A stretch of 49,105 bases of DNA from the IMG/VR virus record IMGVR_UViG_3300003323_000621, positions 72,153 to 121,257 of that record. The stretch is one strand, 5' to 3'. Source of the DNA: a virus. Positions 8,468 to 32,200 of this stretch are shown here, one piece after another. Both the position numbers and the translations under genes were made by a program. Numbering within the stretch: position 1 is the stretch's first letter; every line of letters begins with the position of its first letter. Below the pieces are notes generated by a model. It worked only from the letters and a program-made list of their open reading frames with translations. It had not been told where the DNA came from and did no database searches.

Positions 8468-11400
8468 TGCCTGGAGATAAAAAGAAGAAAAATTATAATT
8501 CTAGAGATCCTAGAACAATGGCAGAGATACAGAAAGAAAATATAAATTCTATTCCAAATTCTCAATGGAAAAATGCTATTCCTGTATATTTACCTAATGA
8601 TGTAGTAGTTAAAAAAGGAAAAGCAGTAAAGGTTCCTGCACCAAAACCAAATGAATATTCTCCTGGTAGTTCAGAAACCTTGGATAATTTATCTTCAAAT
8701 GTATTTTCATATTTTCTAGGAGTTAAAAATGATGGATTAATTCCTTCTCCTTATAGGCCAACTAATGCTAAGGATCCAAAAAGTAAATACTATACTTATA
8801 AAAACATAAAAAATGACATAAAAGAAGATTTAATAGGAGATTCTTATAATGAAAGAATAGCTAATGCTGAGAAAGTATATGCTTCTGGAAATCCAAACTA
8901 TAATCCAATTGTTATATCCAAGAATAGATCTTTTGATGATTACTATAATTATTTAAGTAATAGTAAAAGAAAGGTTAAAATGTCAGGAAATAGTATTAAT
9001 TTAGGACATTATAATCTTTCAGCAGGAGAAGATGAAAGAGGAAGGTACATAAGTGCATATGATAAATATGATTGGAACTTATTAGAAGGTGCTGGATTTA
9101 ATGGTAATAGTTGGGAAACATATGATAGAATATATGATGATGAATGGGATAAAATTCAAAAACCTACTAAAAAAGAAGATGGAGGAGCTGTAGGAGATCC
9201 TATTAAAAAATCTAAAGGAAATACTTCTACAAGTGTTCCTATAACCCTTTATGGTCCTACTGATACTGTTAAGAAAGGAAATAAAACAGTAAAAGTAAAA
9301 AGACCCAGTATTATTGGATCTCTTCCTGTTCAACCTTCTATAAATAATCCTATAGAATTTTTAAATTCATATTATAATAGTGATGAATTTAAAAGAAAAT
9401 CTGGATCATTTTATGATGCTAATATGTCCTATTATAAAGCAGGAGATAGAAGCTATGATGTAGAATATGTAGATAGTAGTAATGAAGGAAGCAATGCTGT
9501 ACCTGCTACAAAACTTGTTACATCAGATATGTTTGGAAAAGGTAGGGGTAAAGATCCTAGTATTATATTAGATAGAAGTCAGGCAAAAAGAAGAGGAATG
9601 AATCTTGAGAATGATATTCTTCCACATGAATATTCTCATACTACCAGAGAATTAAGTGCTGATGATGAAGCAAAGTTTATAGAAAAAAATAGAGATTTTT
9701 TAGTTAAAGATTTTTATAGAAGATATTTAGAAGATATAAATACAACACCTACTGAACATAATTTTTCAAGATGGTCTCAGTCTGTTCTTAATCATGAACA
9801 ACTTCCTAGTGAGAACTATTCTGATATGAATACTCTTAGATGGATTCTGTATAAGAACAATATATATGATGCCAGAAAGGGACCTTTGACTAAGGAACAA
9901 TTACAGAAAGCTATTGAAGATCCTAATATAAAAGATAATTTCATGTTTAAAAGATTATTAAAATCTTTTTCAATTGATGATATTGTAGAACTTAATAATA
10001 CAATAGCTTATAACAATCAAAAAAATAATACACCAATGGCAAGAAATGGATTATCTATGAAAAGAAAAAATTATATGAGTTTTGACCCTGGTGGTAATCC
10101 TAGTCCACAGGAAAAGTATTATCAATCAAGTGCTAGATTAAGTCATTATAAAAATATTCTTAATGATAAATTAAAAGCTAAAAATCCAGAAGCTTTTAGT
10201 AATTACTTTAAAGGACTTGTAGATCTTAGAAGATCAGGTAAAACTAATGAAGCTGATAAGTATGTTCAATCTACAGCATATAATGAATATTTAACTCCTC
10301 AAGAAGTTAAATCTACATTAGGAGATAATGATTATAATGATTATTTATCTAGTATTAGAGAAGTAAATGCTTATGATGTAGCTCAAGGTAAACAACCATT
10401 ATATGGTAATGTAGAAGGAGAAACAAATCTTAATGCATTAAATTATGGTAGAAGGTTTGCTTCTTTACAAATAACTCCTAGTTTATCTGTTTTTAATAAA
10501 GCTTCAGGTAAAAACTATAAGAGGAATTATACATATAATCCTGTAACAAGACAAGTAGATGTTAAAGAAGAAGGAGATGTATCATTAAGACCCAACTATG
10601 TTTCTTCAATAACCCCTACTAATGAAGTAGTAAATAACATGGATGATGGTGGTGTACTTGCATTTAAAGTACCACAAATTCCTATACACACAGAAATGAT
10701 GGAAGGTCCTTTAGATGGACTTGAAAAAGATGGTATTGATTATTATGCTAAATCAGGTATACATATTAAACCTGAAAATAGAGGTAAGTTTAATGCTCTT
10801 AAAAAAAGAACTGGTAAAACTACAGAAGAACTTACTCATTCTAAAAATCCTTTAACTAGAAAAAGAGCTATATTTGCTCAGAATGCTAAAAAGTGGAATA
10901 AGGGTAAGAAAAAAGATGATGGTGGTATTATAGAAGATACATATTTAAATCCTCTTAATTATGATCCTACATTAGATTATTATGAAGAGTATGCAAATAA
11001 TCCTAATCTAATGTTAGATGAAGAAGCTGAATTTGGTACTTCATTACCTGATCCTACAAAACCTAAAATAGATGGAAGTATAACTAATCCTAATAATGTA
11101 GGAGGTTATTTATGGGATCCAATGTCACAAGCAGTTCCTACTCCTTTTGAACAAAATAATTCTGGAGTTATAGATACCAGAACTAATCAACAATTCTTTA
11201 CTGTAGATCCTAATCAACAAGGACCTCAGTTTAATGGAGATTTAAATCAAGATAGTAATCAGCAAAATAATCCTTTATTTAGAATAGGAGAAGAAGATAT
11301 ACAAAATGGATTATTAGGATTAGCTTATGCTACAGGAAATCTTAATAGACCAAGGTCTAATAGAATGCCTTTATTAACATCTTATAATCCTTATGCTCAA

Positions 11401-13755: not shown

Positions 13756-16425
13756 ATGGCAAATTATAGACAAACTAGACCTATAAATTACTCACCATAC
13801 ATTAGTCAAATTCCTTTACAACCAATGTTACAAGTTGGTAGTCAAGAGCAATTAAATTATAATGTAGCTGTAGACAAAATACAATCTCAAGTAAATCAAT
13901 TGGGAGCTTTAGATATAGCCAGGTCTCAAGGAAGAGCTTATGTTAATCAGAGATTAAATGATCTGGTTAATAAGATAAATGTAGCAGCAGGATCAAATTT
14001 TTCTGATCCTAATGTATTTAATCAGTTAACAGCTATGGCAGGTACAATAGGTAATGATCAAACTATTGTTAATGAAGTTGTAGGTACTCAGATGATGAGG
14101 TCTAAACAAAAAGAGATTACTACTCTTAAGGAAAAGAATCCAGAATTATATTCTCAAAAAAATGAAGAATATGCAATGATGGATATAAATAAATGGTTAT
14201 CTGATGGATCACCTGCAGGTACTAAACTTAATGATAGAAGATCTTTCTCTCCATGGTATGATTCTGAAAAAGAAGCTACAGATTTAACAAAAGATTTCTT
14301 ATCAAGACCAGATGAATTTACTACAGAAACTTTAGATCCTAATACAGGACAAATTATAAAGAAAACTTATAAAGGTAAAACAGCTGATCAAATAAAACAA
14401 TTCTTAAATGCCAATTTATCTAGCAAAGCTAAGAATCAATTTATAATTGATGGTACAGTTAATGGACAGTATATATCAGATCAGGAGTTTTTAAGACAGT
14501 ATCAAGAAGATAAAAACAATCAGATTAGATCATTAATAAATGATGGTAATCAATTAACACAAGCTTATCATAGTAGCTCATTAACTACAGAAGAAAGAAA
14601 TAAAATATCATTACAGGTTAATGATATTAATAAACAAATTCAAGCTTTAAATGCAGATAAAGGTAATGTTGATTATATGAGAGCAGCATTAGCTCAAAAA
14701 CCAGATTATTTTGGTCAAATGTATGCTAATCAGAAAATTAATGCAATGGCTATTACTAGAGAATTTTCTGAAAATGCAGTAACATATGGAACTAATGAAG
14801 CTACAGTTTCTCAGCTAAATAGAATAGCTACCAGAGAAAATATGATGTATACTCAAGCTCAAGAGAATGCCAGAGCTTCTATGGCTAACAAATTAGCTTA
14901 TGATAGATTAGCTGTTGATTCTGGGTTTAAAGAACAGGAACTTGAATTAAAAAGAATTGAGTTAGGTCTTAAATCAGGATTGCAACCTGGAATGGCTCCA
15001 TTTAATCCTAATTCTCCTTCCAGTAGATATGATATTCAAACTACAGGAAAGCAGGATATTACAGAACAAATAACTGGACAGAATGCTTATCAAAAATATC
15101 AAACAGAAACTTTTGGTAAGATAAATAATTATAATGCTAGTAAAGGAGCATTATATGATAATTTATCTAAGATAAAATCTTATCAAGATGATTTAGCTAA
15201 ATCTGTAGGAAAGGTATGGAGTAACATGACAGAACCTGAAAGAAGAAATGCTTTTGATCAATATTTAATAGCAAAGAATTCTGATTGGAATAAAGGTAAT
15301 CAAATGCCTAAAGAATTAGATGATTTCTTTAATGCTTCTACAGAGTTATTAAGAGATGTTACTGTAAGAAGAAACTTTGGTAATAATGCTAATGAAAAGG
15401 TCTTAAAAGATATGCAATCATTAGGAGTATCTAGTGTAACTATAGATGGTAAAACATTTACTCCAGAAGATATTCTTAGATATGTAACTACAGGATTTGG
15501 TCCAATAAAAGATCTTCCAGATGGTTCTGTAGCAGGATATGAAAATGTAGAATATATAGATCCTAAATCAGGATTAAGAGGAACCAGAGTAGTTTATACT
15601 GGAGGTTTAAACAAGTATGCTCCTCTTAGAGAAATGGTTGAAAAATTTAAACAATCTGCTGCCCTTAAAGAATATTACAATCAGTTTAATATGTCTTCAG
15701 GACAGGAGTTATATAAAACTACAAGAACTTTTGATCCTAATAATAAAGCTCAACAAGCAGATTTTACTAAGATGAAAGGTCTTGTTATGGGATTATTACA
15801 ACAACAAGATCAATCAAAAGCTCAAAGTATAAATCCTAATGATATATCTCCAGTATTTCATATTAATAATTCTACTGGAGAAATAGAAGGTACTATCATA
15901 TCTAAAGGTAAAGCAGGTAGAGATGTAATAACTCCATTTAAGGTACAGAATGATGCAATGAAATTTAATAATGCAAGAGATCTTGAGTTACAACAAGAAA
16001 TGTTTTTTAATAATGGAGCTACAGGTTCTATTTTAATAAGAGGACCAAAGCCATTTAATGTAGTGATTAAATCTAACTCTACAGATGCAGCATCTAAATT
16101 TACTGTAGGTCCAGGATTATCAGCAGCTAAGTATACTATATATGATTTAAATAATAATCAAATAAAAGATCCTTATGGTGGATTTGATTCACCCACTGCT
16201 GCAGAAGATTGGATAAAAGGTATGGGTAATGCAATTACTCAACAAGAAGCATCTAAATGGTATAATAGTGTAAAAGATACACCACAATTTAAATCAATGT
16301 CTGATAGACAACAAGCTGATGCTTTAAGTAAACATCTTGAAAACATTGATCCTTCAAATAATATGCAGTTCCAAAGTAATAATGTAATGATGAACATTTT
16401 ACAAGGACTTAAAAATACCAAATAA
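13756..16425 (+). CDS. Putative internal (cargo/ejection) virion protein, helical
   Basis: An 889-residue protein starting MANYRQTRPINYSPYISQIP. It is rich in Gln and Asn and largely predicted helical by eye (VDKIQSQVNQLGALDIARSQ, REFSENAV, NARASMANKLAYDRLAVDSG, EQELELKRIELGLKSG), with a mixed C-terminal half (DPKSGLRGTRVVYTGG; TIYDLNNNQIKDPYGGFDSP). No catalytic motif or membrane segment was recognised. It follows its own -7-like element and precedes the RNA-polymerase gene by 14 bases. In crAss-like phages, helical proteins in this position are packed in the head as cargo. The call is by position and composition. Confidence 0.55.
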   Translation: MANYRQTRPINYSPYISQIPLQPMLQVGSQEQLNYNVAVDKIQSQVNQLGALDIARSQGRAYVNQRLNDLVNKINVAAGSNFSDPNVFNQLTAMAGTIGNDQTIVNEVVGTQMMRSKQKEITTLKEKNPELYSQKNEEYAMMDINKWLSDGSPAGTKLNDRRSFSPWYDSEKEATDLTKDFLSRPDEFTTETLDPNTGQIIKKTYKGKTADQIKQFLNANLSSKAKNQFIIDGTVNGQYISDQEFLRQYQEDKNNQIRSLINDGNQLTQAYHSSSLTTEERNKISLQVNDINKQIQALNADKGNVDYMRAALAQKPDYFGQMYANQKINAMAITREFSENAVTYGTNEATVSQLNRIATRENMMYTQAQENARASMANKLAYDRLAVDSGFKEQELELKRIELGLKSGLQPGMAPFNPNSPSSRYDIQTTGKQDITEQITGQNAYQKYQTETFGKINNYNASKGALYDNLSKIKSYQDDLAKSVGKVWSNMTEPERRNAFDQYLIAKNSDWNKGNQMPKELDDFFNASTELLRDVTVRRNFGNNANEKVLKDMQSLGVSSVTIDGKTFTPEDILRYVTTGFGPIKDLPDGSVAGYENVEYIDPKSGLRGTRVVYTGGLNKYAPLREMVEKFKQSAALKEYYNQFNMSSGQELYKTTRTFDPNNKAQQADFTKMKGLVMGLLQQQDQSKAQSINPNDISPVFHINNSTGEIEGTIISKGKAGRDVITPFKVQNDAMKFNNARDLELQQEMFFNNGATGSILIRGPKPFNVVIKSNSTDAASKFTVGPGLSAAKYTIYDLNNNQIKDPYGGFDSPTAAEDWIKGMGNAITQQEASKWYNSVKDTPQFKSMSDRQQADALSKHLENIDPSNNMQFQSNNVMMNILQGLKNTK

Positions 16426-16439
16426 TAATTAAAAGATTT

Positions 16440-19400
16440 ATGCCAGATAACAATACACAACAACCTAATGTATCAGGAACTCCAACTCCTCAACAGATTT
16501 CTCCTTTATCACAAAGAGATTTCTATACATTAGATAATGTGCATCAGAGTGTTGGTTCTCAATTACAGAAGACTTTATTCTGGGATTATGCAAGAAATGC
16601 AGCTCCTGTAGCTCTTGCTAAAATGCCAACTTTATCTACTAACTATCCTAATTTAATTAATAATAGTGGAGTAATATATCAAGCAGGAGTTCCTAAAGCT
16701 ACAAAGACTTGGGATCAAATGAGTATTGAAGTAGCTAATAATTTAAAAGCTACTAATCCTTATTTTAATACTCCTACAGTACAGAATTCTTATCAAGAAG
16801 CTGGTAGATATTCTACTAATATTCATGGTAATGCTCATGGTTATATTAGAGGAAGAAATAATGAAGATTATGAAGCTTCTAAACAATCAGGATGGGAACT
16901 TGTTCCTATTGGTGTAATTAACTTTCTTGAAAAAACAGGTAGTGTTGCTTTATCATCTATTGGTATGATAGGCAATTTACCTAATGCTTTATTATCAGGA
17001 GATATGTCTAAAGCTGCTGATAACTGGTTATCTAAATGGGCAGATCAAATTTATGAAGATAGATCTAATGTTGTATTTAGATCTGATGAATATAATCAAA
17101 AAGGAGCTTTAGCTAAATTAGGTACTGGAACCTGGTGGGCAGATCAAGGAGCAGATATGGCTGGTTTTGTTGCTGGTAATATTCTTCCTGCTGCAGGTAT
17201 TGCTAAAGTTGGTGTTTTAACAAGAGGATCTAAATATCTTGGTAATGCTATATGGTCTTCTAAAGCAGCAGAATCTTTTGTTGCTGCTACAGAAGCTGGA
17301 CAATTAGCAGCTACTTCTGTTCCTACTGTATTACAAGCTGGTAACTTTTTAGCTAAAAATAATAGATGGTTAAATGGATTAACTACTTTAGAAACTAGTG
17401 CTGCTTCTGCTTATACAGAATCAGTATTTGAAGCTGCTGATACTAAAAAGAGAATTTATCAACAAATGTTAGATGCTGGTAAAGCACCAGATGAAGCTGC
17501 TTCAATAGCTAATACTAATGCTAATAGAACTTTTGGTCTTAATATGATGGTATTACTTCCCTCAGCTTTTTGGGAAGTTAATGCTTTATTGAAAGGTAGA
17601 GAAAATTTAAAACAAGCTGTAAAATATATAAGGAATGGAGAATTAGTATCTCCAGAAATGAAATCTTATATTGCTTCTTTAGGTAAAGGTGCAGCAGAAG
17701 GTGCTTTAGTAGAAGGTTTATGGGAAGAGAATGTTCAACATTCTATACAGGAACTAGCAGATAAAATCTCTTCTGAAAAAATATCTACTTCTTTTTCTGA
17801 TATTGGATCTTCTATAATTTCAGATACATTTGTAAATAACTTTACTACTGATGAAGGTTTAGAAAATATTGTTGGTGGTGTAGTTATGGGTATTTTAATG
17901 GGAGGTAAAAAAGGATACTCTAATGTAAAAGATAATTATAAATTAGCTAAAGTAGCTTCTGAGAAGTATAATAAATCTTATACAGATGAATATAAACTAG
18001 CAAAAGATATAATGAAATTATCTGATTATCAGAAAAATACTGATGATTATATAATGAGAGATGCTAGTGGTAATATTATACTTGAAGATAATGTTGCTAA
18101 AATAAATCATTCTAAGCTTATACAAGATGTTAAATCACTTGGATTACAAGTAGATTTAGGATCTACAATGGCTAGTGCAGCTAATAATAATCTTGATGAT
18201 GTATTTGAAACTGCAAAAAATCAACTTATAGGAGAATATGTTTATAACCACATGAATAATGGTCTTGAAGAAAGAATGTGGGATAAACTTAATTCTTGGC
18301 AAAATCTTAATCAAACTGAAAAAGACCAATTGGGAATCTTCTTTGAAGAAAAAGATTCTGAAGGAAATCCTATATCCTTACAAGACCAATTGAATGATGT
18401 TAAAATTAAGACTGCCAAATATAAAAGATTATATAATCATATAGAATCTATGTATCCTGAAGTATTATATACTGATAAGGAAGGTAGAGAATATGGATAT
18501 AATACAAGAGGTATATTTAGAGAATCAATTTTAAATCAATCTTTATCTGATCAATTAGATAATATTAGAAATGATATATCTAGTCTTAGTTCAGAAATAG
18601 TTGAAGCTTTTGAACAACAACTTTCTTATGGAAGTTATTCTGATAGGAATGAAAAATTGTTATGGGAGGAAAATCAAAAGATAAAATCTTTTATTGCAGA
18701 TAATCCCAACTCTACTTTTAGTATACAATTTAATAAATTAAATTCTTCAGAGAAAGAGACTATTAGTGAACTTAAAAAATCTAATGAAAGATATAAAGAT
18801 CTTACTAATAGAGATAATACTTTACAAGAGATTCAATCTACTGTAGAATCAAGAGATAAAAATGAAACTATTGTAAAAGAGAAATTAAAGAATTTACCAA
18901 AGGATATAGAAGCTGAAAATGAAAGATCTGCTAAAGATGCTAATGATGTATTTGATACTGATACTTTACCAGAACCTCCAGAAGATGTAACTATTGAACC
19001 TGTAAGTGATGATATAGATGCTTTTGAGTCTGCTGTAGCTAGTAATACTACTAAACCTTCAGATAGTATTCCAGGTAAAGATGAAGATATGGCATATAGA
19101 GTAAGTGTAGCTAAACAAGCTATATTAAATCATTATGCAGGTAATAAAACACTTCAGCAACAAGCTAGTGATAAACTTGATCAAATGGATGATCAACAAG
19201 TATTCCAAGCTTATGATGCTGTATTTAAAGATCAAGCTAAGACTTTTAATTTTAAAGGAAAGACTATAACTGTAGGAGATATATATAAAGATAATACAGA
19301 AGTTTCCAGACAATGGAAAGTAGTTGGACAAAACACTTTACCAGGAGCACAAGGAGCTGTAATGTTACAAGATATATCTGATCCTACAAATAAATATGAG

Positions 19401-22400
19401 ATAAGTGAACTATCTCAGTTAGATGCTTTAACTCTTGTAGAATCTAAACCTAAAACTAGTAAAGAGAAAACAGAAGAAAAGAAAGATAATATTAAAAAAT
19501 CTCAACAACCATCTCTTACAGAGGATGGAAATCCTATTGTTAATGAAGATACTCCTAAAATCTGGAGAATTCCTAATGGAAATGTATTTGTTGAAGTATT
19601 TCAACAAATACCTTATTCCTTAAATAAAGCTGCTATAACTTCTGTATTATCATCTACCCCTAAAATAGCTGTTACATCAGGTTTAAGAATAAGATTTAAA
19701 AGAGTTACTGATCCTAATAGGATAGCTAAATATAATGATTTAAGAAATCCAGCAGGTCAGGATTTAATGCCTAATACTAATATAAAACAACATATGGGTG
19801 TTTTATATGATGCTGAAATTATACTTGGTGATCAAGTAATAGGATATTTAACTGACCCTAATAAATACATATTCTATAGTTCTACTGGAGAAATCATCCC
19901 AGTAGAATCTATGACTGAAGAATATTTCTCTACTATATATAATACTAATCAAAAGTATCCAATATCTTTAGAACAATTTAAGAATTATCATTCTCAATCT
20001 ACAAATCTTTATAATGAATTAATAACAAGGTTAGGTAATGAAGATGAAATAATTCTTGAACCATCAGATATAAGTTCATTACTGAGTTGGAATATTAATA
20101 ATGGAGAATATGATTATTCTGATAATAAAGAATATTCCCTTGATCAGTTACAGTTTAATACTGTAATGGGAGAAACTTATATAATAGATTCTCAAAATGT
20201 ATTTGATAGTAATGGATTATTACAATCCAGAACACAAAATGTAATTATATCTGATCCTACAAGATATAATGAGATAGATAAAGTAGTACAAGATTCTTTG
20301 TCTAAACTTAATACAGGTATAAATAATTATGGTAGATATGTAGCTGCTGTACAATTAGGTAATGGGGATATAAAATTTGTAGAACTTACTACTCCAGTAT
20401 TAAGTAATACTGAATTAGAATCTATTATAGATTCAATATTTGAAAGAAGATCTCAGTCTGCTAGTCAAACTAATATAGCAGAAGATAGATCTAAAATACC
20501 TAATGATTATTCATTTAATGATCAGTTTAATAAAGATCTTAATGATTTATTGTTTATATCTTTAGATCAAAAAGGTTGGAAAGCAAAATTAGAAGTATCT
20601 CCTACAGGAAGTTTTAGATTAGTAGTTACTGATTATAGAAATGATGGTAAGCCAATATCAGCTAAAATAAATATTAGTTTAACTACATCTAAGAACATTG
20701 ATGATATAATTAAATCAATCAATAACTCTATAGTAGAATATAATAAAGCTGATATTAAGGATAAATCAATTGCTAAAATTCCATTTAAATTAAACAGATC
20801 TAACTTTAAAAAATCTTTATCTAGAAATCCAACAATAGATGAATTAAGACTTCTTTCTACTTCAGTAAATCCTGGAATAGTAAAGAATGCTTCATTAAGT
20901 ATAGATGTAAAGCAATTTACTCCTACACCTACTTTAGTAACAACTAATGAAGTTATAAGAGAGCCACAATTACCTTCAGAAACTAATGTAACTGTTACTC
21001 TTCCTATAGAAGATGAATCAGGTCAGCCTACAGAAGCTATGATTGGTTCAGGTTCTTATCAAGAAATATCTGAGCAAATTAATAATCTTCAAATACAAAT
21101 TCAAACTATTCTTTCTGAAATAAAAACAAGAAAGGATAAAGAATTTAATAAAGTAGCTAATGAAAATATTAAGAATATTAAAGCTCAAATAGCTGACTTA
21201 ATGACTAGATTACCTAAGACTGAAATAACTCTTAAGGTAATAAACTCTAAAGAGTCTAGAGAAGGTACTATAAGACTTAATGAATTTAAAAAGTTTTTAC
21301 AAAAGAATCTTCCTAGTTATATTAATGTAGCTGATATTAACAATCTTTCTAAGAATTTAATGACTACTGGAACTACAGTAGGTGCATTCCAGAATAACTT
21401 AGAAATATTAGGTAATGGAAAGTTTAAAGTAACAGGTGGTACTATATTTACTGCAGATAATAATTCATTTAAATATCATGAAGCATTCCATGCTGTATTT
21501 AGATTATTATTAGATAACAAACAAATAAAACAATTACTTGATCAGGCAAGCAAAGAAGTAAAAATAAATGATCAATCTATAAATGAGTTTAGAAATTCTT
21601 CTTCTTTATATTCTAATTTAGGTGATTCTCAAATTAGAGAAAGAATATTAGAAGAATATATGGCTGATAAGTTTGAAGAGTGGAAATCTAATAAAGCAAC
21701 AAAAACTGATTCCAGGATAAAAGAGTTTTTTAAACAATTATTGCTTTGGATAAAATCTTTCTCACAAAGAATAGGTTTATCCAAACAGGATCTCTATGTC
21801 CTTTTTGATGATATTAATACTGGTAAATACAAGAATAAAGTAATTCAACAAAACAAATTTACTAATTATGGAGAATATGATCCTCAGAGTGAGGTATTCT
21901 CTACTGATCCTGTACTTAAATTAATTAAGATAGGAGAGGAAATAACTACAGATGAAAATGGTAATAAGCTGGTTACAGCAAAATACTTATCTCAATCTAA
22001 GTCTACTCAAATAGTAAATACTGTTACTTCTGTGTTCTTAAACAGAAGAGAAAATTATAGAGGAAAAATATCTGATCTTATTAATGAAATAATGAATGAT
22101 TATGCTACATTGTATGATCCTTCAAGAGATATATATCTAGAAAGAGAAGATTATTCAGATATTATAGAAGATTTATATGATATTCAAGCTGCTTATTCAG
22201 ATCCTTCTGCAAGAGAATCTATAATTGAAGCTATCAATTATAATCTTAATCAGATGGGCTTTAAACAAGCTTTATTAGAAGATGAAAATGAATCTGTAGA
22301 AGATAATTTTGGTCCTAAAACTACATCTGATTATTCTTTATCTCAAGAGAATATAGACTCACATGAAAATATACCTGCTCTTGTTAGAAGACATATAGGT

Positions 22401-25400
22401 ACAGCTTCTAAACAAATTATAGATGAATTTGGTAATACTGAATTAAGAGATGGTGAACCTCTTATTCAAGCAGTAGATGTTAATGTAGTTTATAATGGAT
22501 TATTAAAAGCTCTTGCTAATATTCCAGATTCTAAAACATTTATAAGAAGATTACAACAGTATGGAAAAGGTAATTCTGAATCTTCTATTTACATTAGTAA
22601 ATTCTTTAATGATACTGGATTAGTAATTAATAATGATGGTACTTATAATGTAACTAAGAATTATCAATTATTCAATGCAGCTGTTAAAGGGTTTAATCAA
22701 TATAGAATTAATTATTTATTTAGTAGAAAAGATGCTAATAAACAACATCTTGATATATTTAATGCTAACCAAAAAGATGTAGCACAAACACAGGTTACTC
22801 AATGGTATAATGCATTTACTACTAACTACCAGGATATAGTTGATAATTTTACTAAAGAACAGAATTCAGAAAGAAATAAATTTGTTGATAATAGAAAGAA
22901 AGTTCTTGATAGAATTAATTCTTTCTTGTTATTAACTAAATCTTATTCTGATACTGATCTTAATAAACATGCAGAAGATCTTACATTAGATCTTAATGTA
23001 GCATATGGTATATCATTGTCTAAGAATTATATGTATTATTCAATGATAGCTAATATGACTGCTGAAAGAACTAGTGAGCAGGAAAACTATTATCAAGCAT
23101 TTAAAGATATTCAGCCTTTAACACAGGAAGATATATCTCAACTATCAAAGATTATACAAAAAGGTTTTAATCCTTTTGTAAAAGAGACAAAAGATGTAGA
23201 GATTACTGATGATGCTAGTGGAGAAACTACTACAGATGCTGTAGAAACAGATACTGCAGCTATTGGTAGATTAACTAAGATAGCTGCTAATAATGCAATT
23301 TTTGATGAAACAGTAGGTACTTCATCATTTAAGAATGCTAATAATAAGATGGTATATGGACATCAAAGTCCTACATTTGATCTTATTAAAACTACTCAAT
23401 TACAATCTCAAGATTTTAGGGATAATTTAAGAAAAGATAGTTATCTTAATAATAACTTCTTATTAAATAATTCTAAGTTTAATTGGATTGCTAATATAGG
23501 AAAGTTAATTATTGATAGAATTGATGGTTTAAGACAAGTATCTTTATCAGAGAATTCAGAAGGTCAATTATTTGAAAATAGAACTCTTGATGTAAATAAG
23601 AAAGAAGGTGTTGTATATGGTGATTATAATACCAGGGATTTTGTAGTTCAGTTATATGATCTTTATTTTACTAATATAACTAAAACTAATTCTGGTAATT
23701 CTATAAGAGCTATAGAATACCTTGATGATAATAATGCTAAAAAACAATTAGTATTATCTAACCATCTTATTAGAGTAATTGAAGCTTCTAATACTGGGGA
23801 TACAATTGCTTTACCTATAAATTATTCTTATTCTAAAGAAGGAATAACAGAAGAAGCTATTGATATACTTACTAATGAAGTTATAAATGAATATAATAGA
23901 ATTATAGTAGCAAAAGCAGAAATTGATCAGATTAACCAGGGTATAAAGACTTCTGGAATTATCAAAGGTTATCATACAAAAGAAAAAGGTAAGAAAGAAA
24001 GAGGATTAACATTCTTTAACATGGCTAATTCTCTTGGAAATCTTAGAACTTCTCTTGAAGAATCTGCTTTTAATGGAGTTCCCTTCTTAGAAAATAAAGA
24101 TGTTATTAATAATGTAAGGAAACAACTTAAAGATTATTGGAATAATCAAGTAGAACTTGAAGTTCAATACATGATTAATTCTAATATCATTAAAAGGAAT
24201 GCTAATGGTAAATTACATAATTTATTATTGGCAAGAGAATTAGCAGAGGGATTAACAACAAATAAAAAGTTTGATAAAGGATTATCTGATAAAGTATTTT
24301 TTACAAATGATTTAAAAACTAACATAGGTCAAGTATTTATTAATGATTTTATAAATACATTATCTTATAATCAATTATTAGCTGGAGATGAATCTAAACA
24401 AGTAGATGGTCCTGTTAACCAGGTTAAAAGAGCTAAAAGCAGAAACAATGCTGGTGCTTCTTTATATACAGAAGTAATTGCTCCTGAATTAGGTATTAAT
24501 CATACATTCACTCAGTCTCATATTCTTACTATTAAAGAACCTGAGTTTGTAAATAATTTAGGAGAAGTTAAGAGAGCTGATGCTCAAATGTGGGGAACAT
24601 TAAAAGGTATTAGATATACTTTATTTGGTCTTGGTAAACTTAATACTAAAGTAGCTGAATTCTTAGATAAGATAGAAGCAGGAATTCCTGTTACCAAAGA
24701 AGATGTATTTGGTAATGGAGAATTGGAAGGTTCTATTGATTTTAATGGACAAACAAGTGTACTTAAATTAGCTTATGCAGATGGAATAAAGAATGTCAAA
24801 ATCTCTATGGTAGTACTTACTAAACAATTAACTTCTTATTTCAATGAAGAATCTGGAGAGTGGGAAGCATTACCTCAAATGCAAGAGCTTCATGAAAAAA
24901 GAGTTAAATTAGAGGATTTTGAATCTAGAAATAATACTGTAGCATTTATGATTCCAGAATCAGGATCTAAAATGCTAACAGAAGATATTATTGATGATTT
25001 TAGAAATGCACAAGATATACATTTCAAAGTTCTTGATAATAATTTCTGGAAGTTACAATCAGAAAATCCTTCTAATAAAGTAGTAATTACTGATCCTACA
25101 CAAGCTAAACAGATTATAGATTCTGAACAAAATGATATTGTAGAAGTATCTGTTGAAGGATTTCCTGCTTTAAAATCTCTCTTTGGTAAAGATAAAATAA
25201 CAGTTAAAGAATTAAGAGAAATTTATCAAGAATCTTCTTCTAGAAGAGTAGAACAAAATTATTTAAAAGCTAGAAACTTAATATTTAAAATAACTGGAAA
25301 TAAAAAGGGATTATCTGATAGCATAGATACATCAAGAATAACTCCTGATTTAACTGCTTTTATCAAAAGAGCAAAAGAAACTTTGGAAGCTTCAGGTGCA

Positions 25401-28400
25401 GATTCTCAATTATTAGGATTCTTTGAATTGGATGAGAATAATAAACCTAAGTATGATCTTAATCTTCCAATGACTCTTGATAAATATACTCAGCTATTTT
25501 TGGCTTATTTCTCTAAAGGAGTAATACAAGAAAAAACTCCAGGTCATGCTATTACTTTAGCTTCTGATCAGGGAGTTAGAATACTTAGACAAGTAGTATC
25601 TTTAAATGAAGATGGTTCTGTTAAACAGTTTAAAACTGTAAGAATGGATGAATTTAAAAGTAATCCTTATAGATTCAGAAATATAATAGAGGATGGTTCA
25701 GAACAAGGATTATCTGTAGGAGAATTATATCTTACAGATCTTAAGCATAAGGTTCCTGAGTATAATGAAAAAGGAGAAATAATAGGATATTATTCAGAAG
25801 GTATGATAGCTCCACATTTTGCAGAATTAATGGATATTAAACCAGGAGAAAATATTCCTGAAGCTGTATCTAAGAATTTTGGTGTGAGAATTCCTTCTGA
25901 TGATAAACACTCTTTTATTGCAATTAAAATAGTAGATTTTCTACCAGCTAACTATGGTTCTACTGGTATATTTGCTAAGGAACTTATACAAATTTCTGGA
26001 GCTGACTTTGATGTGGATAAAATGTATATGTCTATAGCTTCATGGTATAAAAATAAACAAGGAGATATTGTTAAATATGGAAATGTATCTTCCCAAGAAG
26101 AAAGATTTGCAGAGTTTATTCATTATGAAGTAAATAATAATAAGGATCTTAAAAAGTTAATAGCAGAGAAACTTCAAGCTAATAAGGATTATAATACTAT
26201 GGATAAAATATTATCTGTAAGTAAACTTAGTAATCCCTGGGTTAATGAAGATTTAGAGAATTTAGTTTCTGAAACTTCTTTCTCTCAAGTTATTTCTTTT
26301 GGAGATACTGATGCTCTTATTAAATATACTAAAGCTGAAAAACAATCTCTTAAAGACACAGCTATTATAGAATCTTTACAACAGTTAGGATTACCTTCTT
26401 CATTAGAAGAATATAACAATTATACTAATAATGGAGAAATAGAAATTAACAATGGAGTACTTAATAATAGAATTTTAGAAGCTAAGATAGGTCTTCTTAC
26501 TAATGAGTTTGTTAATACTTATAATGATACTACAGCTGGTCCTGATGCATTAAAAGATCTTACTAAGGATGAAGATCTCAGACCTTCTCTTAATCTTCCT
26601 GATGGTTATGATACAAATACTATTACTGGTAAAAGAATAGGTTTTACTAATAATAAAGAAGGAGCTAATGGTATTGGACCTGCAGTTAACTTCTCTCTTG
26701 TTTATTCTTTATTAAATAAATATGGAATTAAATTAAGGTCATCAGAGGAATCTAATAATGATGATAGTTTCTTTAAATTAAGGATAGATAATCATATTTA
26801 TGATGGTTATGATAGAAGGATAGCTGATGATGGAGAAAGGATAATGCAGAATATAGCAGTACTTGAAGCTGCTATGACAGATAATGCTAAGGAACAATTA
26901 GCATCCATCTTTAATATTCCTACTCATGCTGTATCTGTATTAGCAAATATGTTCTCTCAAGGTATAGATATGAAAACTGCAGTATCTATATTACTTCAAC
27001 CTTCTATTAAAGAATATTTTAACTCTATTAAAGAATTTGAAGCAAACTTTAAATCAGCAGAAGATGGTAAGATAGATGGTAAAAAAGTAAGTAGAAGAGA
27101 TGTAGGACAAGCTTTATTAGATAAAATAAAAGGTACTATTCCTAATGGACAATTTAATGAAGAATATGAAATAACCAGAGAAGGGTTATTTAGTTCTACA
27201 AGAGGAGAATCTTTAGATTCTATGTTACAATGGAAAGTTCTTGATAGTTATATTAGACTTCAAAAACAAACCAGTTCTGTAGCTTCTATAGCTAATGTAA
27301 TAAAACTCAGTAAGGGATTAGGAACTAGTTTTGAATATATTGATGATATTCAAAATACCTTAAGAGAATTAGGAATATATGAAAATGAAGAAGAATTTAA
27401 AGAAAATCCTTCAGCAGTAGATGTTAGAGAAGTGTTAACTAAGCTTCATAAAATATCATCTACTAATATTAAAGTAATGAATCAAATATTTCAATTATCA
27501 AAAACAATGTTCATTGAAAGAACAGATACTTTTGATAGAATATCTGATATTGTTATGGGTAATATGGATTTCTCTAAAGACATGTATAACTTTGAAGAGG
27601 AAAAGATAAAACTCAAGAGAAATCTTATTTCATATTTGACATTCAAAGCTTATATGAAAGATATGGTTGCTAATAACAAATCTGGAAGATTAACTACATT
27701 AACTAATAAATTATTATATGACAAGTTAAATGAAAATGATAACTTCTTAAATATAGTAGAAATAGTTAAATTAGCTAGGAAAAATGCTCCAAATAATTAC
27801 TTCTTAAATAAATTCTTAAACATGGTTCCTACTTCAAGAATACAGAAAGATGGTTCTGTAGTAGCTAATCAGAATAATAAGGATCAAATTAACAAGATAG
27901 AAGCTAATACTTGGGCTAAAGTATCTAATACCAGAGCAGAGTTATTACAAGATAGCTTTAGAGAGTTGTATTCTAATCCAGATACTAAAGATTATGCTGT
28001 AGCAATATTTAACTATCTTATAGTTAAAGATGGTTTACAGTATAAATCTGGCTCATTTATTAAATACATTCCTAATGCTGTATTTTATGATATTTTACAA
28101 TCAGCATCTAAAGTTAATGATTTAATGAAGTTACAGGTATCTGATTCCTTAACTCAGGAAGAACTTACTAAGAAATATGAAAGTGCTTTTGGGTTAGATC
28201 AAAAGGGTATATTTAATGAGTTTACTAAAGTATATCTTTCTAACATAAATAATGCCTTCCATATTCCACAGGTAACTAATATTGTTAAAAATAATAGTCC
28301 TAAATCAGCAATTAATTTTACATCTGATTTAAAAAATCAAATAAATATTGATATATTTGCAAATACAAAATCTCAAGATTTTGAGAATTATTTTACTGGT

Positions 28401-29207
28401 AAATATTCCAATGAAGAGTTAGGACAAGGAGAAGGTTCTTTACAGATAATAGCTACTCCAACAGGTCAATCTGATTTTTCTAAGGACAGCTTTATAACTA
28501 ATATTGAAGATCTTAATGAATCTGGATTTACCTTTGCTTTTGAAAAAGGTAAAAATAAGAAGGGTGAAGATATAGTTAGAAGATTAGTTAAGTTTCCTTA
28601 TGTAATAAAAGTAAGAGATGGAGCTATAGATAGGTATTATAGATTAAATTCTGTAGGTAAAAAGACTTCTAAAGAGGATGTTACTGATAGTTTAGCATCT
28701 AATTTTATTGAGCCAGGAAATACTATGGCTCAAGGAACTAAAGCTGTATATATTGAATTTCAGCTTAAAGGTGTTAGAAATCAAACTCCTATAGCAGAAA
28801 TGTTTGGAGAGATTCCAGATGCTAAGAATTTCATTAAGAAACCTAGAAATATTCTAGGTATGTCTTTAAAAGATTACATGGAAATGTCAAAAAATCCTAC
28901 CATGTTAAGATCTCTTGGTATGGCAGATACTGCTGATGTTTTAGATGTAATGGGATATGGTACTACAGATATAATAGTAAAAGAAAATGATATTCCAGAT
29001 ATTTCTTTTGAGGGAGAAGCTTTTGCTTTTGATAAAGCTATAGCTGATATTAAAGCTAATCAAGAAATTCCTGCTGTAGAAATAGAAGAGATAGAACAAG
29101 AAGCTTTAGGAATTATAGATGTAGATATGCTTAATGAAATGTTAGCTAAAGATGAAGAAATGAGAAAGAACATGGATGAAATGGACTCAGAATCAGGAAC
29201 ATGTTAA
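16440..29207 (+). CDS. Giant virion protein: ejection region + zincin + crAss-type RNA polymerase
   Basis: A 4255-residue single polypeptide. Residues about 150-500 carry several hydrophobic Gly/Ala-rich stretches (GSVALSSIGMIGNLPNALL; AGFVAGNILPAAGIAKVGVL; NIVGGVVMGILMGG at about 475-488), suggesting membrane interaction during ejection. Acidic and Lys-rich linkers lie near 845-880 and 1005-1030. A coiled coil is at about 1537-1600. A zincin is at 1680-1684 (HEAFH), with EEYMADKF at 1738-1745 as the likely third-ligand helix. RNA polymerase: GVRIPSDDKHSF, then VDFLPANYG, then ELIQISGADFDVDKM with Asp3189, Asp3191 and Asp3193 match the beta-prime double-psi barrel and metal-binding DxDxD loop, as in phi14:2 gp66. 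The usual Gly of DxDGD is Val3192. A beta-like barrel probably lies upstream, but its two catalytic Lys residues were not located. It likely transcribes early phage genes after ejection. Confidence 0.8.
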   Translation: MPDNNTQQPNVSGTPTPQQISPLSQRDFYTLDNVHQSVGSQLQKTLFWDYARNAAPVALAKMPTLSTNYPNLINNSGVIYQAGVPKATKTWDQMSIEVANNLKATNPYFNTPTVQNSYQEAGRYSTNIHGNAHGYIRGRNNEDYEASKQSGWELVPIGVINFLEKTGSVALSSIGMIGNLPNALLSGDMSKAADNWLSKWADQIYEDRSNVVFRSDEYNQKGALAKLGTGTWWADQGADMAGFVAGNILPAAGIAKVGVLTRGSKYLGNAIWSSKAAESFVAATEAGQLAATSVPTVLQAGNFLAKNNRWLNGLTTLETSAASAYTESVFEAADTKKRIYQQMLDAGKAPDEAASIANTNANRTFGLNMMVLLPSAFWEVNALLKGRENLKQAVKYIRNGELVSPEMKSYIASLGKGAAEGALVEGLWEENVQHSIQELADKISSEKISTSFSDIGSSIISDTFVNNFTTDEGLENIVGGVVMGILMGGKKGYSNVKDNYKLAKVASEKYNKSYTDEYKLAKDIMKLSDYQKNTDDYIMRDASGNIILEDNVAKINHSKLIQDVKSLGLQVDLGSTMASAANNNLDDVFETAKNQLIGEYVYNHMNNGLEERMWDKLNSWQNLNQTEKDQLGIFFEEKDSEGNPISLQDQLNDVKIKTAKYKRLYNHIESMYPEVLYTDKEGREYGYNTRGIFRESILNQSLSDQLDNIRNDISSLSSEIVEAFEQQLSYGSYSDRNEKLLWEENQKIKSFIADNPNSTFSIQFNKLNSSEKETISELKKSNERYKDLTNRDNTLQEIQSTVESRDKNETIVKEKLKNLPKDIEAENERSAKDANDVFDTDTLPEPPEDVTIEPVSDDIDAFESAVASNTTKPSDSIPGKDEDMAYRVSVAKQAILNHYAGNKTLQQQASDKLDQMDDQQVFQAYDAVFKDQAKTFNFKGKTITVGDIYKDNTEVSRQWKVVGQNTLPGAQGAVMLQDISDPTNKYEISELSQLDALTLVESKPKTSKEKTEEKKDNIKKSQQPSLTEDGNPIVNEDTPKIWRIPNGNVFVEVFQQIPYSLNKAAITSVLSSTPKIAVTSGLRIRFKRVTDPNRIAKYNDLRNPAGQDLMPNTNIKQHMGVLYDAEIILGDQVIGYLTDPNKYIFYSSTGEIIPVESMTEEYFSTIYNTNQKYPISLEQFKNYHSQSTNLYNELITRLGNEDEIILEPSDISSLLSWNINNGEYDYSDNKEYSLDQLQFNTVMGETYIIDSQNVFDSNGLLQSRTQNVIISDPTRYNEIDKVVQDSLSKLNTGINNYGRYVAAVQLGNGDIKFVELTTPVLSNTELESIIDSIFERRSQSASQTNIAEDRSKIPNDYSFNDQFNKDLNDLLFISLDQKGWKAKLEVSPTGSFRLVVTDYRNDGKPISAKINISLTTSKNIDDIIKSINNSIVEYNKADIKDKSIAKIPFKLNRSNFKKSLSRNPTIDELRLLSTSVNPGIVKNASLSIDVKQFTPTPTLVTTNEVIREPQLPSETNVTVTLPIEDESGQPTEAMIGSGSYQEISEQINNLQIQIQTILSEIKTRKDKEFNKVANENIKNIKAQIADLMTRLPKTEITLKVINSKESREGTIRLNEFKKFLQKNLPSYINVADINNLSKNLMTTGTTVGAFQNNLEILGNGKFKVTGGTIFTADNNSFKYHEAFHAVFRLLLDNKQIKQLLDQASKEVKINDQSINEFRNSSSLYSNLGDSQIRERILEEYMADKFEEWKSNKATKTDSRIKEFFKQLLLWIKSFSQRIGLSKQDLYVLFDDINTGKYKNKVIQQNKFTNYGEYDPQSEVFSTDPVLKLIKIGEEITTDENGNKLVTAKYLSQSKSTQIVNTVTSVFLNRRENYRGKISDLINEIMNDYATLYDPSRDIYLEREDYSDIIEDLYDIQAAYSDPSARESIIEAINYNLNQMGFKQALLEDENESVEDNFGPKTTSDYSLSQENIDSHENIPALVRRHIGTASKQIIDEFGNTELRDGEPLIQAVDVNVVYNGLLKALANIPDSKTFIRRLQQYGKGNSESSIYISKFFNDTGLVINNDGTYNVTKNYQLFNAAVKGFNQYRINYLFSRKDANKQHLDIFNANQKDVAQTQVTQWYNAFTTNYQDIVDNFTKEQNSERNKFVDNRKKVLDRINSFLLLTKSYSDTDLNKHAEDLTLDLNVAYGISLSKNYMYYSMIANMTAERTSEQENYYQAFKDIQPLTQEDISQLSKIIQKGFNPFVKETKDVEITDDASGETTTDAVETDTAAIGRLTKIAANNAIFDETVGTSSFKNANNKMVYGHQSPTFDLIKTTQLQSQDFRDNLRKDSYLNNNFLLNNSKFNWIANIGKLIIDRIDGLRQVSLSENSEGQLFENRTLDVNKKEGVVYGDYNTRDFVVQLYDLYFTNITKTNSGNSIRAIEYLDDNNAKKQLVLSNHLIRVIEASNTGDTIALPINYSYSKEGITEEAIDILTNEVINEYNRIIVAKAEIDQINQGIKTSGIIKGYHTKEKGKKERGLTFFNMANSLGNLRTSLEESAFNGVPFLENKDVINNVRKQLKDYWNNQVELEVQYMINSNIIKRNANGKLHNLLLARELAEGLTTNKKFDKGLSDKVFFTNDLKTNIGQVFINDFINTLSYNQLLAGDESKQVDGPVNQVKRAKSRNNAGASLYTEVIAPELGINHTFTQSHILTIKEPEFVNNLGEVKRADAQMWGTLKGIRYTLFGLGKLNTKVAEFLDKIEAGIPVTKEDVFGNGELEGSIDFNGQTSVLKLAYADGIKNVKISMVVLTKQLTSYFNEESGEWEALPQMQELHEKRVKLEDFESRNNTVAFMIPESGSKMLTEDIIDDFRNAQDIHFKVLDNNFWKLQSENPSNKVVITDPTQAKQIIDSEQNDIVEVSVEGFPALKSLFGKDKITVKELREIYQESSSRRVEQNYLKARNLIFKITGNKKGLSDSIDTSRITPDLTAFIKRAKETLEASGADSQLLGFFELDENNKPKYDLNLPMTLDKYTQLFLAYFSKGVIQEKTPGHAITLASDQGVRILRQVVSLNEDGSVKQFKTVRMDEFKSNPYRFRNIIEDGSEQGLSVGELYLTDLKHKVPEYNEKGEIIGYYSEGMIAPHFAELMDIKPGENIPEAVSKNFGVRIPSDDKHSFIAIKIVDFLPANYGSTGIFAKELIQISGADFDVDKMYMSIASWYKNKQGDIVKYGNVSSQEERFAEFIHYEVNNNKDLKKLIAEKLQANKDYNTMDKILSVSKLSNPWVNEDLENLVSETSFSQVISFGDTDALIKYTKAEKQSLKDTAIIESLQQLGLPSSLEEYNNYTNNGEIEINNGVLNNRILEAKIGLLTNEFVNTYNDTTAGPDALKDLTKDEDLRPSLNLPDGYDTNTITGKRIGFTNNKEGANGIGPAVNFSLVYSLLNKYGIKLRSSEESNNDDSFFKLRIDNHIYDGYDRRIADDGERIMQNIAVLEAAMTDNAKEQLASIFNIPTHAVSVLANMFSQGIDMKTAVSILLQPSIKEYFNSIKEFEANFKSAEDGKIDGKKVSRRDVGQALLDKIKGTIPNGQFNEEYEITREGLFSSTRGESLDSMLQWKVLDSYIRLQKQTSSVASIANVIKLSKGLGTSFEYIDDIQNTLRELGIYENEEEFKENPSAVDVREVLTKLHKISSTNIKVMNQIFQLSKTMFIERTDTFDRISDIVMGNMDFSKDMYNFEEEKIKLKRNLISYLTFKAYMKDMVANNKSGRLTTLTNKLLYDKLNENDNFLNIVEIVKLARKNAPNNYFLNKFLNMVPTSRIQKDGSVVANQNNKDQINKIEANTWAKVSNTRAELLQDSFRELYSNPDTKDYAVAIFNYLIVKDGLQYKSGSFIKYIPNAVFYDILQSASKVNDLMKLQVSDSLTQEELTKKYESAFGLDQKGIFNEFTKVYLSNINNAFHIPQVTNIVKNNSPKSAINFTSDLKNQINIDIFANTKSQDFENYFTGKYSNEELGQGEGSLQIIATPTGQSDFSKDSFITNIEDLNESGFTFAFEKGKNKKGEDIVRRLVKFPYVIKVRDGAIDRYYRLNSVGKKTSKEDVTDSLASNFIEPGNTMAQGTKAVYIEFQLKGVRNQTPIAEMFGEIPDAKNFIKKPRNILGMSLKDYMEMSKNPTMLRSLGMADTADVLDVMGYGTTDIIVKENDIPDISFEGEAFAFDKAIADIKANQEIPAVEIEEIEQEALGIIDVDMLNEMLAKDEEMRKNMDEMDSESGTC

Positions 29208-29219
29208 AATTATAACTTA

Positions 29220-32200
29220 ATGTCATATTGTAGATTAATAGTTCCAAAGGTAGGAAACAATAAAGGTGTAAAAACTAAATCTGTTTTATATTCAAATATA
29301 CTTGATACAGTTAAGGATCCTAAAAAGGCAACTAAACTGTATCAAGTTGCCTTTACAAGTGATTTTATAAATAATTTTGGGGATTGGATAAATAATCCTC
29401 AAGATAAAAATATTATATCTAAATTAGATAGTAATGGAGAACCTAAATTATCTGAGTTAAAAGATTATATAACCAGTGCTAACTTTAGGATTAAATCTAA
29501 TAGAAATATAGAATACTTCAAGAAAAGATATGGAATAGATAAAGTAATGAGTCTTGGAGAAGCTCAATTATTATCTGAAAAGATCAATAAATTATATCCT
29601 AATGTTCAAGCATCTTGGGATGCAAGAACAGATAATAAAGGAGTAGTTAATCTTCATTTTAATACTTCTGAGTATTTAGCAGATAAAAATTCTGATGGAG
29701 AAGTTAATAGATTACTAGTATCTAAATTACTTGACAAGTTTCCAAAACTTAATGTGAAGTATATAAATCAAACAGATATTGAATCTATAATAGGATCAAG
29801 AAATTTATTAAAAGCTGGTAATGCTGATAACATCAGATCTTTCTTTCATGGAGGAACAGTATATATAATAGATGGAAGAACAGATAATGAAATGGTTATA
29901 GAGGAGTTTTTACATCCTTTTGTAGCTAATATAGCAAAAGATAATCCTGAAGCTATGTTAGGATTATTCAATGATGCAAAGAAAAATTATCCTCAGCTTT
30001 GGAATTATATTCAAAGAGAGTATAATTCTGAAAGAGGATATTCTAATGCTGACAGAGCTAAAGAACTAGTTACTCAATCTATAGCTAAAGTAGCTAATAA
30101 TGAATTTGAAGAAAATGGTTTAGATGAAATATCTAAAAATGATTTCTTATCTAAAATAGAAACCTTTTGGAATAAGCTTAGAGATCTTATTAGATCTTTA
30201 ATAAATAATTCAGATAATAGAATATTTGCAGATGATATAGTTCCAGGTACTAAAATAGATGATATTGCTAAGTTACTTGGAGTAAAGGATATATCATTCA
30301 ATACTTATATTTCTGATCCATTAGAAATATATTTTAATTTAACAGAAGAAGAACAAAAAGGAGAAAATCCTCCTTTACCTACAGATACTGAAGCTGATTT
30401 AGTAGAAAAAATGCTAAATGGTCTTTATAATTATCAAAAGATATTAGTTGATAGAAAAAACTTTTTTAAAGAATCTAATACTAATAGAAGATCTAAGTTT
30501 CAATTCCAGGGTAAAACTATTAATGGATTAGAAGCACTAATTGCTGAATTAGGAACTGATATAGATAATCTTAAATTAGAATATTCTAAAGGAGAGTTAA
30601 TTAGGATATTTAGTAAAATGTTAGATAATATCCAGCATGATGCTGAAAGTATATCTAAATATATTAACAATAAGAAAAATGTAAGTACTGATCCTTATAT
30701 ATCTGTTGTATTAGAAGCTCAAAAAATGATTGATAGTTATAGTAATCTTAGATTAGCAGTAGATATTGGTATGACTAATACTAATATTGAATCCAAGATG
30801 AATAAAACTATTGATCAGCTTAATACTCTTAAAGATGATCTTCTTGATGCAGTAAATGATTATGTAGTACATGTAGTTAAAAATACTACTAACAATGATA
30901 GTTTAACTGAAGAAGAGATTAAAAAAATTCTTAAAGAGAGTTATGACATTCCTGATGCAGATTATTTATTTGGAGACATGTCTACTTCAAAAGATACTTT
31001 ATTAGCTATAGCAGATATTCAATATAAGAATGCTATGATAGCTGTAAAAGATAGAGTAGATGAAAGAAAGGAACAATTAAATACATTAGGAAAGAATCTT
31101 ATAAATGCTACTGGAGGTAAAACTAAAAAAGGATTATTTAACTTCATGATTGATTTTGATGATAAAGGTAATCCTACAGGAAGGTTAGTACAAAAGATAG
31201 GTAAGCAATATTATAATAAGAAGAAAGCAGTAATGGATCCTTTGTTTAATGAAAAAGGAGAGAAAATAGAATACTTTGAAATAAAGAATGTATTAACAGC
31301 AGATCCTGCTCAAGTAAGACATAATCAAGAATTATATGCAAAGAAAAAGGTAGCAAGAATGTTTAGATCTGCTGAGATTATAGAAGATGGTCAAATTTAT
31401 GATGGTACTTATCATGCATATACAGAAGAGTTTTTAAGAGATAGAGCTAAGTATGAAATATTTGATGGAGCAATGTGGAGAGTAAGTCCTGAGTATGAAA
31501 ATACTCCAGAGTATTCTCAGTATAGAAACAAATATTATACTGATCCAATAGAAGTATTAGTAGGATCTCCAAATGGCTCTGCTCAATTAATGAAGATGTC
31601 ATTTCCTAAGAATGAATATGTATATATTAAAGATATTGCATCAACAGGAGAGGATATGAGAGATTCTAAATGGGTTAAACTTCATAACCCTTTAACTAAC
31701 CTTGAAAGAGCTCAATTAGAATTTTATAATGGATACTTAGAAATATATAATGATCTTCTTAACAGACTTCCTGAAAAATATAGGAAGGAAATGGAAGGAA
31801 AGATGATTAAGGTTAAGATGGGTCTGTATAATAATATTATGGAACATAAAGAATCCATGTTCAAAATTATTGCCAGGTCTTTTAGACAATGGACTAAAGC
31901 TCCTGAATATTCTGCACAAAGAGTTACTGATGAAACAGGAATGATTTCTGATGAAGTTCCATTATTTTATGGTGGAGATTTCCAATCTCAGAAAAGGATT
32001 GATTCTCTTCAAAATGAAATTGATAAATTAAAAGCAGATTATTCTGCTAATAAAATCAAACAAGAAGAATATCTTGAACAGAGAAAACAATTAACATCCA
32101 GACTTAACTTTGAAATGGGTAAAGTAAGAGCTGATGAAGCTAGTCTTGATTTGTTAGATGGTCTTAGTAAGTTTGTTAATATGGCTGAGAACTATGATGT

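Follow-up and report, generated by a model that had tools for sequence, protein, structure and literature searches.

A fused virion RNA polymerase and its neighbours

The window, by which we mean the whole 49,105-nucleotide stretch of DNA analysed here, occupies the 3′ portion of a virus record of 121,257 bp and carries on its + strand a single uninterrupted open reading frame (ORF; 16440..29207) with an ATG start and zero internal stops, encoding a giant protein of 4255 aa. By ORF reading and homology, this protein combines a module resembling phi14:2 gp67 and crAss001 gp47 with a virion RNA polymerase of the gp66/gp50 kind. A sequence-only reading of the locus had pointed to three motifs in the translation, HEAFH (residues 1680-1684), EEYMADKF (1738-1745) and GADFDVDKM (3187-3195), and each lies at exactly the residues it gave. 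The giant protein has zero matches in PHROGs and Pfam and no meaningful phmmer match in the PDB, and megablast against phages returned no match.

The flanking genes described here lie on the same strand. The next ORF (29220..33677) encodes a 1485-aa gp65/gp49-like partner, predicted to be the next chain link, which is similar over its C-terminal part to phi14:2 gp65 (E = 3e-8), cr1_429 (1e-25) and the C-terminal part of p-crAss gp44 (5e-23). Upstream lie two cargo-like proteins without any cysteine: one of 889 aa (13756..16425), classed by gene order and cysteine lack and related to an 845-aa protein of Leptolyngbya phage Lbo-JY46 (E = 6e-21), and one of 1728 aa (8467..13653). In contrast, the 1689-aa stabilization/muzzle-type structural protein (3398..8467), which matches phrog_37948 (E = 4e-127) and a 1654-aa Lbo-JY46 protein (E = 5e-148), is not ejected and contains 19 cysteines. 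Along the window, the gene order is stabilization/muzzle, cargo proteins, gp67-like, polymerase and gp65-like.

As for affiliation, TerL shares ~28-31% identity with crAss-like phages and 38% with Lbo-JY46, MCP and portal match phrog_11589 and phrog_6547, respectively, and a tblastn search with MCP returned Lbo-JY46 and one fecal contig only, with no named Crassvirales genome. Lbo-JY46 (L016:2355-15261) is a cyanobacterial phage whose TerL, MCP and structural proteins are related to those of the window; it has a chain of two proteins that shows the Cys pair described below, and two HExxH sites, and the DxDxD polymerase motif was not found in it. Side observations include a 286-aa alpha/beta-hydrolase esterase-like ORF (GLSAGG, DHYIW) amid tail-fibre-like genes of the window (38118-38978), as well as GNAT acetyltransferase-like motifs (RRKGIAS, YRGKGVGTSA) in the C-terminal part of phi14:2 gp67 (L014) and in the 2748-aa protein of Lbo-JY46 (L016).

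The RNA polymerase core spans residues 2600-3640 (24237..27359, + strand). Our structure model of this segment (pLDDT 80.8, pTM 0.81) has as its top Foldseek match 6vr4_A, the structure of phi14:2 gp66 (E = 6.4e-24, probability 1.00, TMq 0.58), with an rmsd of 10.8 over 1135 columns in which domain placement is rough; the second match, far behind, is QDE-1, the known relative of this polymerase class. The match to 6vr4_A extends to the overall polymerase-core fold, with both barrels in one chain, and confirms the polymerase identity proposed earlier, including a double-psi barrel around residues 3120-3200. By conservation and alignment, DFDVD (residues 3189-3193; 26004..26018, + strand) is the metal-binding motif of this beta-prime-like barrel: it aligns with phi14:2 gp66 1361-1365 as a DxDxD motif, and D3189, F3190, D3191 and D3193 are invariant among 46 aligned relatives. 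A second aligned stretch (residues 2776-2787; 24765..24800, + strand) holds the invariant K2776 and K2787, candidate lysines of the beta-like barrel. The blocks RIP...S...LP...GSDFDVDKMY and DAQ...LK...K align across phi14:2, p-crAssphage, cr11, cr1 and the window, the former reading RIP...S...LP...GSDFDIDKMY in gp66, and tblastn with the polymerase part matched crAss-like RNA polymerases. A more distant likeness is offered by the long-tailed phage P23-45, where a cellular-type polymerase is fused to the tape-measure protein in a giant virion protein (PMC10770324); its polymerase relative gp96 gave only a weak fold match to our core model (E = 0.016).

Two phi14:2 proteins line up in order along the giant protein, its leading residues 85-560 (16692..18119, + strand) corresponding to gp67 16-460 (blastp, E = 3e-8) and residues 3099-3202 to gp66, and the next ORF corresponds to gp65. 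The giant ORF is thus a Crassvirales virion RNA polymerase (phi14:2 gp66-like) fused to the preceding gp67/gp47-like protein. Residues 85-560 may act in ejection, as their alignment with gp67 suggests; the hydrophobic ejection-type segments described from the sequence reduce to one, residues 241-262, which alone exceeds the Kyte-Doolittle cut-off in a 19-residue window. The protein was also said to be almost twice as long as a virion polymerase with only the catalytic part, which is correct (4255 aa vs 2180 aa for gp66) because it is fused to its gp67-like partner. Its description as a virion protein finds good support by homology: crAss001 gp47, gp49 and gp50 were detected in virions by mass spectrometry (PMC10172136), and the phi14:2 gp65-67 records bear MS/MS annotations. 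For relatives of the giant polymerase, both virion presence and early-gene transcription are known (PMC10172136, PMC10136315).

The zincin domain and the fused state across relatives

The zincin-type domain, delimited by conservation and modelling, occupies residues 1666-1810 (21435..21869, + strand), with HEAFH at 21477-21491 and EE, the candidate third ligand, at 21651-21656. In an alignment of 54 relatives, invariance within this stretch is confined to H1680, E1681, H1684, E1738, E1739, F1745 and N1805, which include both the HExxH and the candidate downstream Glu ligand of a gluzincin; with its putative ligands invariant here and the DFDVD aspartates invariant in the polymerase, chance is excluded as the source of the motifs. 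Conservation peaks locally at residues 1601-1800 (majority fraction 0.55-0.57, with flanks at 0.26 and 0.36), about as high as in the polymerase core, and in the model the putative ligands lie in helices of pLDDT 85-96. By tblastn, this part matches crAss proteins annotated as 'RNAP associated protein fused to zincin' or 'RNA-polymerase subunit'. The modelled domain had no PDB fold match at E<=0.001, and BFVD gave nothing significant, other giant crAss proteins matching it weakly there. The zincin motif itself is strongly conserved.

The sequence-only reading further proposed that the zincin cleaves the giant chain after entry, releasing the polymerase. Such a role would suit the invariance of HExxH and EE and the position of the domain directly before the gp67-like/gp66-like joint, but the motif is equally intact in genomes whose polymerase is a separate protein (crAss001, cr128, cr85, cr112, cr3, crAss002), and therefore release by self-cutting is neither needed nor supported. 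Moreover, phi14:2 gp67, unlike the giant protein with its HEAFH, contains no HExxH, and a second site downstream is degenerate in the window: EEFLH in the 1485-aa protein (29901..29915, + strand) has lost its first His where Lbo-JY46 has HEFMH, and the comparable regions of phi14:2 gp65 (HEIMH) and cr1_429 also contain HExxH. We consider self-cleavage improbable; the zincin probably, if we may hazard a substrate, acts on something else during entry. Two relatives vary in this region. In the giant ORF of L080, zincin and polymerase are set apart by ~1,200 additional residues, among them a second HExxH (HEYAH 2419), and L068, whose polymerase half is 78% identical to L059, has an upstream part unlike that of L059 in which HEYQH replaces HEAFH, either through a domain swap or through chimeric assembly.

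The three-part design is not confined to the window: single proteins of 4328-4946 aa show it in cr1_1, cr50_1, cr118_1 and cr109_1, and the fused state is thus already in public records, annotated without remark. The earlier observation was accurate, and the giant ORF is an ordinary family member, a fused form of known kind. Scanning IMG/VR with the core alignment, we took the 80 best loci from 529 hits, which are mutually related and whose counts are not independent; with the window included, zincin and polymerase share one ORF in 75/81 sequences, and the other 6 comprise 4 cut by a contig end, 1 interrupted and 1 with an unrelated upstream part. In cr1_1, the fused protein is gp_19430 (4551 aa; about 25% core identity to the window), and here as in other Suoliviridae fusions a gp65-like ORF comes next with the same Cys pair, the cr1_1 type differing from the window in a few internal cysteines. 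A 5443-aa fused zincin-polymerase that ends in Cys was also seen in cr7_1 (L119:12027-28358), with TAG read as Gln. Taken as a whole, the first reading stands as to polymerase, motifs and virion protein, and is unsupported as to self-cleavage for polymerase release.

Paired cysteines at the junctions between giant proteins

The first reading missed a pattern of cysteines at the ends of consecutive giant proteins. The only cysteine of the giant protein is its last residue, Cys4255 (29202..29204, + strand), and the only cysteine of the 1485-aa partner is Cys4 (29229..29231, + strand), which ORF translation and relatives mark as its predicted disulfide mate. Together, the cargo-block ORFs (1728, 889, 4255 and 1485 aa) contain 2 Cys, whereas ~110 would follow from the genome rate of 1.32%; it looks as though selection had kept stray thiols out of these large proteins. 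Among relatives of the window, a Cys near the C-end occurs in every giant ORF whose stop is visible (78/78; in the last 5 residues, with one at -14) and in 56/56 non-redundant ones, and it is the only cysteine in 72 of the 78; at the family's own cysteine frequency, 0.4% of tails would be expected to have such a Cys. In 75/75 relatives, the next ORF carries its Cys within residues 3-5 (starts are predicted, and in two the Cys would fall at residue 8 if an upstream ATG were used), with no further Cys seen in 72 of them. In this lineage, the C-end resembles a short acidic-hydrophobic helix ending K-K-C-x-L, and the N-end of the partner reads M-A-K-C-x-N.

The same arrangement is found where the modules are encoded separately. 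For instance, phi14:2 (Crassvirales, Steigviridae; gp66 = PDB 6VR4) shares the three-module order and the polymerase fold with the window but uses three polypeptides rather than two, and the sole cysteines of its gp67, gp66 and gp65 are gp67 C1797 (last residue), gp66 C3 and C2179 (second last) and gp65 C3. In crAss001, the HEAFH zincin protein gp47 (ending ...RCNS) has its Cys at -3, gp50 (with DxDxD, beginning MSKRC...) has one internal Cys besides those at 5 and -9, and gp49 has Cys5 only; unlike in the window, these are all separate proteins, with the gp47 gene on the strand opposite gp50 and gp49. Overall, both sides carry Cys at 37/37 chain junctions drawn from a wide range of crAss-like phages and outgroups, a set that includes related, non-independent genomes and counts crAss002 after start correction and csAssE across a frameshift; in named genomes, the rule holds at 23 junctions in 17 genomes. 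Middle proteins have both Cys, first proteins the C-end Cys only and last proteins the N-end Cys only. Control ORFs from the same genomes had Cys at residues 2-6 in 7/228 cases, in the last 5 residues in 7/228 and at both ends in 0/228.

Parity is kept across fusions and fissions. Fusions of gp66 to gp65 keep the front Cys only (p-crAssphage, cr11, cr3, cr271, crAss002, cr8_1, jaberico, ctbg_1), such as in p-crAssphage, where the zincin protein gp45 ends in Cys and the polymerase protein gp44 begins MSC, but where, unlike in the window, the polymerase is fused to the gp65-like part rather than the zincin part. Fusions of gp67 to gp66 (window, Suoliviridae) keep the rear Cys only. Conversely, an extra split within the polymerase of L033 leaves a 3782-aa protein with Cys as its last residue, an 859-aa protein with Cys both at residue 3 and at the end, and a 1318-aa protein with Cys3. 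The 859-aa piece matches residues 3595-4139 of the window's giant protein (E = 3e-46), the 3782-aa piece aligning up to residue 3528, and this is therefore a true fission that gained a new Cys pair. An additional 384-aa link in L030 likewise has Cys3 and Cys -2, and the partner after it begins at a GTG codon and also has Cys3.

Some of these cases were predicted before they were read, namely six further genomes, the missing partner in L010, and phi17:2 (from csAssE). All six further Crassvirales genomes (6/6) obey the rule, three of them reading TAG as Gln. The L010 polymerase has Cys at both ends and its upstream partner is absent from the locus; the chain model therefore called for a gp67-like protein of its own with Cys at its end, and one was then found elsewhere in the contig as a 2944-aa zincin protein (HEYTH) that ends ...RDYC across the circular joint. 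It came from reading the ORFs, a zincin profile search of the L010, L012 and L013 contigs having returned nothing. In phi17:2, gp39, gp38 and gp36 have a C-end Cys, both and an N-end Cys, respectively, and no other Cys, and csAssE has the same three-protein signature, with its last link apparently frameshifted (a 281-aa ORF overlaps a 1885-aa ORF). No polymerase DxDxD motif was recognised in either of these distant phages; the cysteine chain is thus wider than the polymerase, and may be unrelated to transcription.

The rule also bears on annotation: the annotated start of crAss002 gp33 (L102:16243-16339) is probably 32 codons too early, as a start at its second Met yields MSC, in line with all relatives. 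Exceptions comprise L025, split without cysteines by what looks like a frameshift, L078, with an interrupted frame, and L068, in which the upstream part bears no relation to that of its relatives. Away from the junction ends, the chain proteins have lost most of their cysteines, to the greatest extent in the window lineage. Cysteine loss as such is not universal, since L010 and cr271_1 keep many internal cysteines. It may nonetheless be general in ejected giant proteins: phage N4 gp50 (L100), a giant ejected polymerase, has 0 cysteines in 3500 aa and an HExxH string. N4 gp50 is a T7-type polymerase, and differs from the window in being a single chain with no terminal cysteines.

A predicted disulfide-linked chain of ejected proteins

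One C-end and one N-end Cys at each split, with none at the chain ends, fit a linear covalent chain, and we propose that consecutive ejected proteins are probably linked by disulfides, C-end to N-end, into one covalent string. As read from the sequences, the ejected giant proteins would form an ordered linear chain of gp67/gp47, gp66/gp50 and gp65/gp49, in which, wherever neighbours are separate, the C-end Cys of the upstream protein and the N-end Cys of the downstream one would already be joined by an interchain disulfide in the virion. The string would exit the capsid N-terminus first, each protein pulling the next through the narrow tail, and reduction in the host cytoplasm would free the polymerase and its partner. 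In the window, the first joint is a peptide bond and the second is predicted to be Cys4255-S-S-Cys4. Peptide bond and disulfide would be interchangeable, since threading would require only that the string be unbroken. The crAss001 virion tail does contain disulfides, and its cargo has been argued to need partial unfolding for tail passage (PMC10172136); for these virions, data sets taken with and without reduction are available from the same study.

A different bonding of the same ends deserves the most attention among the alternatives. Terminal Cys could join neighbours non-covalently or via a shared metal (zinc, iron-sulfur), stabilising the stored complex with no covalent string; this follows the same pairing logic, and the several stored copies estimated for the virion (PMC10172136) could supply four ligands. 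However, only the Cys is invariant near the C-end, its flanks offering no constant extra ligand, and a single Cys at each end is just enough for a disulfide but few for a metal site, leaving this reading rather unlikely. Somewhat less likely still, the Cys at each terminus could be an independent capsid-loading signal or carry an unknown modification. The K-K-C-x-L and M-A-K-C-x-N ends of the window lineage do look signal-like, but independent signals would not explain that the N-end Cys never occurs in the first protein nor the C-end Cys in the last, that new fissions gain both and fusions lose both, or that both Cys are absent from the cargo-like proteins of 889 and 1728 aa.

That translation or DNA structure at gene junctions gives rise to the pattern as a by-product is very improbable: most junctions do lie between adjacent co-directed genes and TGT accounts for 142/153 terminal Cys codons, but TGC is used too, the distance to the stop ranges from 1 to 14 codons, L010 keeps the pair though its partner gene lies elsewhere in the contig, and crAss001, cr128, cr85 and cr112 keep it with gp47 and gp50 on opposite strands, and therefore no effect of the DNA junction is at work. 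Equally hard to credit is a C-terminal cysteine switch holding the zincin inactive, as in matrix metalloproteinases, which would suit a zincin and a lone Cys in one protein of the window lineage but leaves the N-end Cys of the next protein unexplained and meets C-end Cys without HExxH in phi14:2 gp67 and gp66, the L033 859-aa protein and phi17:2 gp39/gp38. Two other candidates were rejected along the way. A shared N-terminal docking domain of gp66- and gp65-like proteins, searched for with an HMM, was not general (some Steigviridae gp50-type termini scored E about 2e-4 to 1e-3, and the best decoys about 0.02), and for intein or ligation chemistry no intein family was found and the thioester logic is absent.

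The disulfide-linked string remains the reading we prefer, and in its broad form we lean toward the view that Crassvirales and their relatives chain giant ejected proteins by disulfides, that peptide bond and disulfide are evolutionarily interchangeable, and that cytoplasmic reduction frees the polymerase. As far as the open literature shows, the cysteine chain is unreported: we found there no report of terminal cysteines or disulfides in crAss cargo, and Drobysheva et al. 2021 could mention them. Crass-like phages are the most abundant human gut viruses, and the problem addressed is how folded polymerase in megadalton quantities passes a tail channel of <50 A and the envelope in the right order. 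The cysteine rule makes chain order readable from sequence, aids gene-start correction such as that of crAss002 gp33, and names the residues predicted to be bonded, which makes it testable on cultured crAss001, phi14:2 and phi17:2. If true, it would describe a new modular covalent polyprotein, a disulfide-linked tandem cargo with redox-triggered release.
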